The notes beneath the pieces are model-generated. The model saw only the letters and a list, made by a program, of their open reading frames with translations, had not been told where the DNA came from and made no database searches. A stretch of DNA of 42,048 nucleotides from a virus, in IMG/VR virus record IMGVR_UViG_3300005548_000004, positions 1 through 42,048 of that record, one strand, 5' to 3'. This document shows positions 18,579 to 24,824 of this stretch, in pieces. Both the position numbers and the translations under genes were made by a program. Within the stretch, counting starts at the first letter, position 1; the number at the start of each line of letters is the position of its first letter.

Positions 18579-18763
18579 TGACCACCATCGACTTCCACAT
18601 CGTCAACGGCGTCGGAACCGTCATCGCCACGGCTGAGACGGCCGACCTCGCGAAGGCTTTCGTCCTCCGCAACAAGCTCCGCTTTCCCAGCCTCCGCGTC
18701 GAGCAGGTGACCGTCACCACGACGCGCCAGGTGATCTATCAACCCCGAAAGGCCGCGGCATGA
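18578..18763 (+). CDS. hypothetical 61-aa protein
   Basis: It starts MTTIDFHIVNGVGTVIATAE with alternating hydrophobic residues typical of a beta sheet, then a basic segment and VTVTTTRQVIY. ATG 18578 overlaps the upstream stop as TAATG, and the stop overlaps the RecT gene as ATGA. Translational coupling to RecT suggests a shared early role. Confidence 0.6.
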   Translation: MTTIDFHIVNGVGTVIATAETADLAKAFVLRNKLRFPSLRVEQVTVTTTRQVIYQPRKAAA

Positions 18764-19617
18764 ACGCCATCGTCCCCGTCCAGACCTACCCCGTTTCCGA
18801 CATGGAGCGCATGGCCAAGGCCTTCGCCGCCTCCAAGTTGTTCGGGGTCCAGAACGTCGATCAGGCCCTTGCCCTGTGTCTGGTGGCCCAAGCCGAAGGT
18901 CGCCACCCGGCGAGCGCGGCGCAGGACTATCACATCATCCAGGGCCGACCAGCCAAGAAGGCCGACGCCATGCTGCGCGACTTCCTCAGCGCCGGCGGCA
19001 AGGTCGAGTGGCACACGCTGGACGACACGACTGCCGACGCCACGTTCAGCCATCCCTCGGGCGGCTCTGCCCGGATCGACTGGACGTTCAAGCGCGCCAC
19101 CCAGGCCGGGATCGCGAACCCGATGTGGAAGAAGTACCCGCGCCAGATGCTCCGCTCCCGCGTGGTGAGCGAGGGCGTCCGCACGGTCTGCCCGGGGGCC
19201 ACATCCGGCATGTACGTGCCCGAGGAAGTGCAGGACATCGTTCACGACCAATCCCGCACCCACGCGCCCCGGGAGGCCCCGCAGGAGCCGGTTCAGGACG
19301 CCGAGTACCTTCCGATCCAGGGCCGCAAATCCAGCGCCCAGGCCAAGCGCGACGGCGACCATACCCGCATCAACGGGATCATCGACGCGGCCGACGCGGG
19401 AACGCTGGACGAGTTCGAGGAGAACTTTGACGCGCTGACGGCGGACCTGCCGCTGAGCTGGCTCGATCCGCTTCGCAACCGGATCATCCTGCGCCGTGAG
19501 GAACTGACCGCCCCCATCGTGGAGGGCGCCGAAGACATGGACGAAGCCTTTCGCGCAACAATGGGTAGCGAGCGTCCTGGCCGCGTGGCCGGGAACGGAA
19601 GTGCGGTGGCGGCGTAG
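18760..19617 (+). CDS. recT: RecT-family single-strand annealing protein
   Basis: 285 aa. The RecT core runs over residues about 30-170: QALALCLVAQAEGRHPASAA, DYHIIQGRPAKKADAML, FSHPSGGSARIDWTFKRA, WKKYPRQMLRSRVVSEGVR and GMYVPEEVQDI. It anneals complementary single strands for recombination. The C-terminal 100 residues are acidic and helical and may contact partners. No exonuclease gene of the RecE/Exo type is adjacent; NinB follows instead. Confidence 0.85.
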   Translation: MNAIVPVQTYPVSDMERMAKAFAASKLFGVQNVDQALALCLVAQAEGRHPASAAQDYHIIQGRPAKKADAMLRDFLSAGGKVEWHTLDDTTADATFSHPSGGSARIDWTFKRATQAGIANPMWKKYPRQMLRSRVVSEGVRTVCPGATSGMYVPEEVQDIVHDQSRTHAPREAPQEPVQDAEYLPIQGRKSSAQAKRDGDHTRINGIIDAADAGTLDEFEENFDALTADLPLSWLDPLRNRIILRREELTAPIVEGAEDMDEAFRATMGSERPGRVAGNGSAVAA

Positions 19618-19619
19618 CA

Positions 19620-20078
19620 ATGAGCGACCGTCACACCCTCAAGCTGGTCGGGTCGAACCGCGCCAAAGCCTACAAGGGCATTGAGGCGGCTATCGCGAAG
19701 TCGAAGCAGCCGGGCGCGCAGCCGTGGATGTTGGAGCTGCGCGAGCGAACCCGCACAGATGAGCAGAACGACGCGCTTCACGGGTTGATCGACCAGATAC
19801 TCAAGCAGCGCCCGACGCTCTGCGGCATGAAGATGGACAAGGCCCGCTACAAGGCCGTGTTCATGCAGGCGCTGGGCCACGAGAGTGTCATGCTCCCCAC
19901 GCTGGCCGGCGATGGGTTCTTCCCGATGGGCCTCAGCACGTCAAAGCTGACGGTTGGGGAGTTCACGGCCCTGATCGAGTTCGCGCTGGCATGGTGCGCC
20001 GAGCAAGGGCTGACGATCAAGCATTTCGATGGCGCAGAGGACGGGGAGGCTTCGAAGGCCTCCCCGCGTGCGGCATGA
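19620..20078 (+). CDS. ninB: NinB-like recombination protein
   Basis: 152 aa. NinB family markers are RERTRTDEQNDALHGLIDQI and LSTSKLTVGEFTALIEFAL, ending AWCAEQGLTI. NinB of lambda (Orf) is a recombination mediator that binds single-stranded DNA and SSB. It lies directly after RecT, consistent with a RecT/NinB recombination set. ATG 19620 is two bases past the RecT stop. Confidence 0.85.
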   Translation: MSDRHTLKLVGSNRAKAYKGIEAAIAKSKQPGAQPWMLELRERTRTDEQNDALHGLIDQILKQRPTLCGMKMDKARYKAVFMQALGHESVMLPTLAGDGFFPMGLSTSKLTVGEFTALIEFALAWCAEQGLTIKHFDGAEDGEASKASPRAA

Positions 20079-21065: not shown

Positions 21066-21292
21066 TGGGCGCGGTCGAGTTCATCCCTCCTCCGCGAGGC
21101 CACTGCCTATGGAAGCGCCTCTTCGGTCACACCGGGATCCTGCTGTTCTGGACACCATGGGACTGGAGCATCGGATTTGAGATTTGGAGAAGCGGGGCGG
21201 CGGTCAATGTCGGCCCGCTGAGCCTGGGGTTCGCGCGCCTTCGTCCAGCGGAGAGCCCAAGCCCGCAGTCCGAGGCGAAAGACGATGCCTGA
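21065..21292 (+). CDS. hypothetical 75-aa Trp-rich protein
   Basis: It contains FIPPPRGHCLWKRLFGHTGI and FWTPWDWSIGFEIW, a Trp-rich hydrophobic stretch that might be membrane-associated, then a polar tail. ATG 21065 (TGATG) is preferred over the TTG three bases upstream. Function unknown. Confidence 0.55.
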   Translation: MGAVEFIPPPRGHCLWKRLFGHTGILLFWTPWDWSIGFEIWRSGAAVNVGPLSLGFARLRPAESPSPQSEAKDDA

Positions 21293-21842
21293 TCCATTTC
21301 CTCAGAACTTGGCCACCAAGCTTGCCGCCGACCCTGAAACGGGGTGCATGATCTTTACCCGCGCAAAGAACGCTAAGGGTTACGGTCGCCTCAAGGGTCC
21401 AGATCGACGCCTTCGACTGGCGCACCGCGTGGCTTACGAAGCAACCCGCGGGCCAATCCCGGCCGGCTTGGTTATTGATCACCTTTGTCGGAACCCGGCC
21501 TGCTGCAACCCAGCCCACCTTGAGGCCGTCACTACCCAGGAAAACACACGGCGCGCCAATTCCGGGCTGAAGGACGCGATCAAGACCCATTGCCCTCAGG
21601 GTCACCCCTACGACGAGGCGAACATCTATCGCGGACGACGGGGCGAGCGCCAGTGCAAGACATGCACGCTCGCGAGGGGCAAGAAGGGGGATTGGGCCGC
21701 TTACAAGCGCCTCCTCAAAGTCCGCCGGGCCCTCAATACTTCATCTTCCAACCCCACTGACGCACGTTTCTCCGAAACGGCGAAGGCGGCCGAGATGAAG
21801 TCGGAAGGGGGCGCTAGGCCTTCAGACGGGAGCGTCTCTTGA
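21285..21842 (+). CDS. HNH endonuclease with C-terminal zinc-finger motif
   Basis: 185 aa. The HNH_3-type core is LAHRVAYEATRGPIPAG, then VIDHLCRNPACCNPAHLE and TTQENTRR. A Cys/His motif CPQGHPYDEANIYRG and CKTCTLARG follows, typical of free-standing phage HNH/homing-type endonucleases. The last ~35 residues are low complexity. The 3' end overlaps by 29 bases an opposite-strand repressor gene. It may be a selfish insertion in the early operon. Confidence 0.85.
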   Translation: MPDPFPQNLATKLAADPETGCMIFTRAKNAKGYGRLKGPDRRLRLAHRVAYEATRGPIPAGLVIDHLCRNPACCNPAHLEAVTTQENTRRANSGLKDAIKTHCPQGHPYDEANIYRGRRGERQCKTCTLARGKKGDWAAYKRLLKVRRALNTSSSNPTDARFSETAKAAEMKSEGGARPSDGSVS

Positions 21843-23867: not shown

Positions 23868-24045
23868 ACCAGTCCCAACAACCCCCGCCGTACAGTCGGG
23901 ATGGCCGACAGAGGCGATTGAGCGGCTGAGGACCCTCCTGCGCTGCGTCGAGGAAAATCCTCCAGCGGCAAGTGCGGAACAGTTTTATGGCGACCTCCGC
24001 GCCATCCTCGCTCTTCTCCCTAGCCCTCTAGAGGGTTGTGAATGA
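23857..24045 (+). CDS. hypothetical 62-aa protein
   Basis: MTNKPVPTTPAVQSGWPTEA, then helical AIERLRTLLRCVEENP and FYGDLRAILALLPS. Overlaps the upstream gene by 11 bases and the methyltransferase start by ATGA. Function unknown. Confidence 0.55.
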   Translation: MTNKPVPTTPAVQSGWPTEAIERLRTLLRCVEENPPAASAEQFYGDLRAILALLPSPLEGCE

Positions 24046-24824
24046 AGGGCCTCCCGAGCCAATCGTGCGGCGCGCGGGAACCCATATCCCGCGCTGCCAC
24101 CAGCGCCGAGCCTGCTGCTCAGTTGCGCGTCCTATCGCTGTTCGCTGGCATCGGAGGCTTCGACCTCGGGCTTGAGCGGACCGGCGGCTTCCAGACGGTC
24201 GCCTTCTGCGAGATCGACCCTTTCTGCCGGCGCGTGCTGGCGAAGCATTGGCCAGAGGTCCCCTGTTACGATGACGTGCGAACCCTCACCGCCGAGCGCT
24301 TGGGCGCTGACCGCATCGCCGTTGACGCCATCACCGCCGGCTTTCCGTGCCAAGACCTCAGTCGTGCTGGCAAGCGTCATGGGATGGCAGGCGAGCACAG
24401 CGGACTATGGTCTGAGGTCGCCCGCCTTGTTGGCGAACTACGACCAGGCCTCGTCCTCTTGGAGAACGTCCCAGAACTCCTTGTTCGGGGGATGGGCCGA
24501 GTTCTCGGGGACCTGGCCACAATCGGGTATGATGCGGAATGGGACGGCATACCGGCGGCGGCCGTGGGCGCCCCGCAGTTACGAGCTCGACAGTGGATTT
24601 TGGCCTACCCCGCTGGCCTCGGAGACAGGCTATCGGCGGAAGCCATTCAAACAGGGTGGGATCACCCTAGCTTTCGCCGTGGGTGGGCCTGTGAACCCGG
24701 AATTTGCCGAGTGGGTCATGGGCTACCCGGCCAAGTGGACCGACTGCGAACCCTCGGAAACGCCGTCGTCCCCCAGATCCCCGAGCTGATCGGCCGCGCG
24801 ATCCTGACTGCGAGGGCCGCATGA
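24042..24824 (+). CDS. cytosine-C5 DNA methyltransferase
   Basis: 260 aa with the ordered C5 methyltransferase motifs: I VLSLFAGIGGFDLGLE (residues 30-45), IV AGFPCQDLSRAGKR with catalytic Cys103, VI ENVPEL (141-146), VIII-like QLRARQW (179-185) and X LGNAVVPQIPELIGRAI near the end. The target-recognition region is very short, so specificity cannot be predicted. It probably protects phage DNA from host restriction or affects gene control. From about base 24350 on, the +1 frame is also open and protein-like (see next entry). Confidence 0.9.
   Translation: MKGLPSQSCGAREPISRAATSAEPAAQLRVLSLFAGIGGFDLGLERTGGFQTVAFCEIDPFCRRVLAKHWPEVPCYDDVRTLTAERLGADRIAVDAITAGFPCQDLSRAGKRHGMAGEHSGLWSEVARLVGELRPGLVLLENVPELLVRGMGRVLGDLATIGYDAEWDGIPAAAVGAPQLRARQWILAYPAGLGDRLSAEAIQTGWDHPSFRRGWACEPGICRVGHGLPGQVDRLRTLGNAVVPQIPELIGRAILTARAA
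24379..24789 (+). CDS. candidate overprinted protein in the +1 frame of the methyltransferase gene
   Basis: This frame is open from before 24172 to a stop at 24789; ATG 24379 is a possible start (136 aa) but has no clear ribosome site. It reads as a phage protein type I recognise separately, often labelled DNA methylase or hypothetical: ADYGLRSPALLANYDQ, SSWRTSQNSLFGG, EFSGTWPQSGMMRNGTAY, GFWPTP and NPEFAEWVMGYPAKWTDCEP. The recognisable part begins near 24350 (FRAKTS). Both frames therefore look like conserved families over the same bases. Whether it is translated, and how (internal start or frameshift), is unknown. Confidence 0.45.
   Translation: MGWQASTADYGLRSPALLANYDQASSSWRTSQNSLFGGWAEFSGTWPQSGMMRNGTAYRRRPWAPRSYELDSGFWPTPLASETGYRRKPFKQGGITLAFAVGGPVNPEFAEWVMGYPAKWTDCEPSETPSSPRSPS

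Follow-up and report, generated by a model that had tools for sequence, protein, structure and literature searches.

A reading frame nested in a phage cytosine-C5 methyltransferase gene is conserved and probably encodes the second subunit of a two-chain enzyme

The DNA presented here contains a C5-cytosine methyltransferase gene (hereafter F0) in which a second frame, shifted by +1 on the same strand (hereafter F1), is also open. The question is whether F1 is a genuine coding frame and, if so, whether its product is an unrelated protein, an extension of the methyltransferase or a part of the enzyme itself. Our analysis makes it very likely that this one stretch of DNA encodes both subunits of a nested heterodimeric C5-cytosine methyltransferase with the motif layout of M.EcoHK31I, F0 being the alpha subunit and F1 the beta subunit.

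The phage and its catalytic frame

The window, that is, the whole stretch of DNA analysed, is the IMG/VR virus record IMGVR_UViG_3300005548_000004 (42,048 bases). It contains terminase, portal, head and endolysin genes, and the methyltransferase locus is adjoined by NinB-like, HNH, excisionase-like and integrase genes; thus, the window represents a temperate phage. Upstream of the methyltransferase, among the early genes at 18760-20078 and 21285-21842, lie an HNH endonuclease, a gene of the NinB/Orf type and one with a weak match to RecT.

F0 (24042-24824, plus strand) starts with the ATG at 24042, has a stop codon ending at 24824 and encodes 260 amino acids. It was matched by phrog_363 (1.3e-76) and by PF00145 (1.1e-39), the latter over residues 29-192 only. 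The C5-methyltransferase motifs I, IV (PCQ), VI (ENV), VIII (RxR) and X are all present and in order. Homologue alignments placed motif I (FAGIGG) at 24141-24158. Motif IV (GFPCQ, with the catalytic cysteine; 24339-24353) contains the invariant columns G100, P102, C103 and Q104, motif VI (24462-24470) the invariant E141 and N142, and motif VIII (24582-24590) the invariant R181 and R183; the same bases are read in F1 as parts of AFRAKTS, WRTSQ and PWAPRSYELDSGFWPTP, respectively. Motif X (GNAVVP, 24756-24773) was assigned by alignment.

When compared with M.HhaI, the F0 profile covered residues 9-184 and, weakly, 293-319 (motif X), and skipped residues 185-292, which comprise the recognition domain and motif IX and have no counterpart in F0. 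In their place F0 residues 191-238 (24612-24755) were predicted by AlphaFold2 (AF2) as a low-confidence linker (pLDDT mostly 45-68), between a confident catalytic core (mostly >90) and the motif X helix (about 93 over residues 241-260). Foldseek searches with this model returned M.HhaI first (best E-value about 1e-15). In a single-chain C5-methyltransferase the recognition domain and motif IX belong to the same chain as the catalytic motifs; here both appear to reside in F1.

The nested frame is conserved and under selection

The +1 frame has no stop codons over 24046-24786 and contains the sequence stretches for which an earlier note on this DNA had singled it out. F1 is terminated by the TGA at 24787-24789. 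Its best candidate start is the ATG at 24271, which gives a 172-residue product (24271-24789, plus strand); TTG 24322 and CTG 24307 are possible alternatives. No good Shine-Dalgarno sequence precedes the ATG in the window. Among 118 representatives, 46 had a nested start with a Shine-Dalgarno-like element, about three times the 15.3 expected from synonymous shuffles. Internal initiation is thus the likely route of F1 expression, one of the two that the earlier note had put forward.

To examine F1 across related loci, relatives were collected by F1 and, independently, by F0. In a leave-one-out test, each locus was evaluated with a profile built from the F1 sequences of the other loci, its real +1 frame being compared with 500 versions in which F0 codons were shuffled synonymously. 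The real frame exceeded all 500 shuffles in each of the 21 loci (z 6-11). For 55 homologues of F0 aligned by codon, the ratio of observed to expected synonymous-codon identity was 1.05 upstream of F1 and was raised over most of F1, at 1.48 in the core and 2.00 in the C-terminus, where single 30-base bins reached 2.6; past the F1 stop it returned to 1.00. The constraint is bounded by the ends of F1, which bears out the proposal of a second conserved protein in this frame. The feature had been placed from 24350; the conservation claimed there is present, but the conserved part begins further upstream, at about 24290-24310, with synonymous constraint rising at about 24288-24300.

Stop codons gave a further measure of selection. 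Over the overlap, 50 were found in the +1 frame versus 211 expected, a fourfold depletion, and 394 in the +2 frame versus 401 expected, that is, no depletion. Similarity in the +2 frame, analysed as a control for ancestry, was also elevated (median z 6.2), because F1 constraint on the third positions of F0 codons conserves all frames. Therefore, similarity alone does not prove which frame is selected, and only stop depletion and codon periodicity (see below) discriminate between the frames. As an outside control, we scored PF00145 genes from 10 bacterial genomes. None of 14 ordinary full-length single-chain C5-methyltransferases had an F1 signal (z -1.7 to 1.2), whereas all 10 methyltransferases matching only the N-terminal half of PF00145 did (z 2.3-12.7), the signal being weak in two of them (L542 and L551, z 2.3 and 2.9). 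Thus, F1 is a conserved, selected coding frame, and the suspicion that such an overlap exceeds chance was well founded.

The probable role of the nested frame

Profile searches with phrog_1008 matched F1 in the window (2.4e-26) and in all 62 homologues examined; no match was found among Pfam and NCBIfam profiles, and the N-terminal part of F1 has no known relatives. The AF2 model of F1 alone was poor (pLDDT 64.5, pTM 0.30) and gave no significant fold match in Foldseek; a subunit whose folding depends on its partner would likewise be expected to yield a poor model when predicted alone. Neither the F1 profile nor its 25-residue C-terminus picked up any methyltransferase in sequence searches of the PDB.

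More informative was the comparison with methyltransferase profiles. A conserved block of 25 residues at the F1 C-terminus aligned with motif IX of ordinary C5-methyltransferases over 25 of 25 columns (profile-profile comparison, P 3.2e-4), and on this basis F1 motif IX was assigned to NPEFAEWVMGYPAKW (24694-24738, plus strand). The direct score of the F1 C-terminal profile on the HhaI motif IX peptide was weak, being reached by about 1% of shuffles. Immediately upstream lies a recognition-like cassette, ETGYRRKPFKQGGITLAFAVGGPV (24622-24693, plus strand), identified by its exchange between diverged genes and its F1-frame codon periodicity. For example, the recognition segments of L051 and L005 are 92% alike and their catalytic parts 41%, while those of L148 and L089 are 8% alike and their catalytic parts 89%; unrelated segments thus occur even at 89-90% likeness of the catalytic parts. 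Homologues sharing a cassette had an identity of about 0.75 in the F1 frame versus 0.38 in F0, distributed as 0.76/0.82/0.42 over the three F1 codon positions. It follows that selection acts on the F1 frame here and that F0 reads filler. These patterns suggest that the segment before motif IX behaves like a recognition domain exchanged between phages. The 'TL' dipeptide of known recognition domains is in modest excess in F1 and carries no weight as evidence.

Judging from these sequence comparisons, F1 is most likely the missing DNA-recognition half of the methyltransferase. In the mechanism that we propose, the alpha subunit would bind SAM, contribute the PCQ cysteine together with ENV and RxR, and be closed by the motif X helix. 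The beta subunit, presumably produced by internal initiation in the +1 frame of the alpha gene, would supply the target-recognition segment and the motif IX that alpha does not have. The two chains are expected to assemble into an active enzyme, whose most likely role is to shield phage (and host) DNA from restriction by methylating it; the complex, its methylation activity and the protection are all predictions.

Among other explanations, we consider it very improbable that overprinting produced an independent protein in F1, such as a regulator or an anti-restriction factor, functionally unrelated to a methyltransferase that works alone. The absence of Pfam and NCBIfam matches and of known relatives of its N-terminal part would fit such a protein, as would the persistence of the upstream part of F1 in two loci (L025 and L157) in which motif IX is in alpha. 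However, F1 was never found apart from the methyltransferase in the loci examined, it carries the motif IX that alpha is without, it is absent from single-chain methyltransferases, and its cassette is exchanged like a recognition domain.

Programmed frameshifting from F0 could instead make F1 a C-terminal extension, giving a chimera of motifs I-IV and the recognition domain. F1 does lie in the +1 frame, within reach of a +1 shift, and the F0 N-terminus of three loci (L428, L441 and L485) already shares the frame of F1. On the other hand, the chimera would be devoid of motifs VI, VIII and X, constraint in the F1 frame starts in the middle of the gene, and nested starts supported by Shine-Dalgarno elements are enriched, which makes this explanation very improbable. 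Finally, the similarity among F1 sequences might stem from conserved F0 codons and common descent, with F1 left untranslated. F0 conservation does contribute to the F1 score by itself (the null means are tens of bits), and +2 similarity is elevated too, but this explanation is extremely improbable and hard to reconcile with constraint that begins and ends with F1, stop depletion in +1 only, a cassette with F1-type codon periodicity and identity, and ordinary methyltransferases without any signal.

Occurrence, module layouts and known two-chain enzymes

At each of the roughly 450 loci examined, a partly redundant set since some loci recur between scans, F1 was in the +1 frame of a methyltransferase. 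This held for 160 of 160 viral loci (half of them chosen by F0), for 212 of 212 further loci, and for all 80 bacterial loci, which come from many phyla and three of which have the F0 N-terminus in another frame. Among 369 gammaproteobacterial genomes, 13 contained F1, always overlapping a methyltransferase, a divergent clade included. No stand-alone F1 gene was found in viral contigs, bacterial genomes, plasmids or phage records. The nested arrangement is therefore widespread in phages and far broader than the single published case suggests.

The divergent gammaproteobacterial clade (L567, L570, L571 and L575; CHFFAGIGGW, VWTGSCPCQPFS) is likewise nested in +1, and its F1 terminates in a NPAHSRWLMGLP-like motif IX. 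One of its members, L570, was missed by the F0 profile, but inspection revealed the overlapping-frame methyltransferase. Paracoccus phage Pyei1_p05 was rejected as a family member since it had no F1 signal and is of another kind; its relatives have a relaxed specificity that has been tested (PMC3925955, PMC6536676).

Public annotation of these loci is inconsistent. In most inspected records F0 alone is named, while both frames are annotated in Paenibacillus phage Tadhana and others. In Stenotrophomonas phage SOVA965 (L005, 1405-1905) the F1 frame is annotated as a DNA-cytosine methyltransferase, and in Microcystis phage Mwe-JY08 (L002, 392-652) as a hypothetical fragment, F0 being unannotated in both. 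Annotation pipelines usually forbid long same-strand overlaps, and thus one subunit is missed, or filed as hypothetical or as a second 'methyltransferase'. The earlier idea that F1 belongs to a separate phage protein type did not hold: the 'separate' proteins are the same locus annotated in either frame, and members of the second family standing apart from a methyltransferase, which had been suggested as a check, did not turn up.

The modules are not divided in the same way everywhere. In the window and most other loci motif IX is in F1 and motif X in F0. In Streptomyces phage Samy (L523, 888-2229) and Gordonia phage Camerico (L524, 954-1800), F0 stops beyond motif VIII, and motifs IX and X are both read in the F1 frame. 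L025 (1825-2769) and L157 (2492-3544) are single-chain variants in which motifs IX and X have returned to the F0 frame; even so, the upstream part of F1 can still be recognised in them (z 4-5). The role of F1 may therefore extend beyond providing motif IX, since part of F1 is retained even where alpha has this motif. F0 is interrupted, with a part in another frame, in L428, L441 and L485 and also in L022 and L074, which may reflect an indel, a sequencing error or a real re-split.

We infer that F0 is the older frame over motifs IV-VIII, where F1 would have been overprinted, and that the order is reversed over motif IX, and probably over the recognition segment, F1 being the older of the two there. 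The earlier proposal of overprinting thus appears to apply to the N-terminal part of F1 and not to its C-terminal recognition segment and motif IX, since this part is ordinary methyltransferase sequence moved out of the catalytic frame, where F0 now reads filler. It is somewhat more probable than its opposite that these genes form a pan-phylum mobile class of phage methyltransferases shaped by reciprocal frame exchange, with catalysis in one frame and recognition in the other, in which cassettes are swapped in the nested frame and read as neutral filler in the catalytic one. If so, this would be among the largest conserved same-strand nested gene families, spanning phages and bacteria and mostly annotated in one frame in the records examined. 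The occurrence of the same modules in ordinary, AquI-like and nested layouts offers a large natural series for studying the evolution of overlapping genes. On the two-subunit reading, recoding of an alpha gene, as in codon optimisation, would destroy beta, and the resulting enzyme could be dead or unspecific.

A search of a limited library for literature on nested phage methyltransferases found no papers. PHROG 363 and PHROG 1008, catalogued as two families that are both named 'DNA methyltransferase', correspond here to the two frames of a single locus. The catalytic domain of F0 resembles that of M.HhaI, which, unlike F0, is a single chain with its own recognition domain and motif IX (185-292). 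M.AquI (CYCGRG), a two-polypeptide enzyme, also has motif IX on another chain than the catalytic motifs, but its motif X is on the small subunit and that of the window on the large one; the AquI layout, with motifs IX and X on the second chain, is shared by Samy and Camerico.

The closest likeness is to M.EcoHK31I, another two-polypeptide C5-methyltransferase, with the target YGGCCR. According to PMC3404938, its large polypeptide has motifs I-VIII and X and its small one motif IX; a paper in the reference list there (Lee et al. 1995) states in its title that both polypeptides are needed. The EcoHK31I sequence is cited in PMC6174562 under accession X82231. Similarly, at the sequence level, alpha in the window has motifs I-VIII and X without IX, which is on the second polypeptide. 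Given this motif split in M.EcoHK31I, the window arrangement would belong to a known kind. The likeness is one of motif layout, as compared through the published description only. Two differences are apparent: the predicted recognition domain of M.EcoHK31I is in the large subunit as published, whereas the window has an exchanged recognition-like cassette in the F1 frame; and EcoHK31I is a restriction-modification system, whereas no linked restriction enzyme was recognised in the searched part of the methyltransferase neighbourhood in the window. The small-subunit gene of the window lies inside the large-subunit gene in another frame. Lee, Kam and Shaw are said to have described in 1995 the same nesting for EcoHK31I, with a beta subunit of reportedly about 176 amino acids, close to the 172 of F1 from its best start. 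What is new beyond M.EcoHK31I is the breadth of the arrangement, its constant nesting and the exchanged recognition-like cassette in the nested frame.
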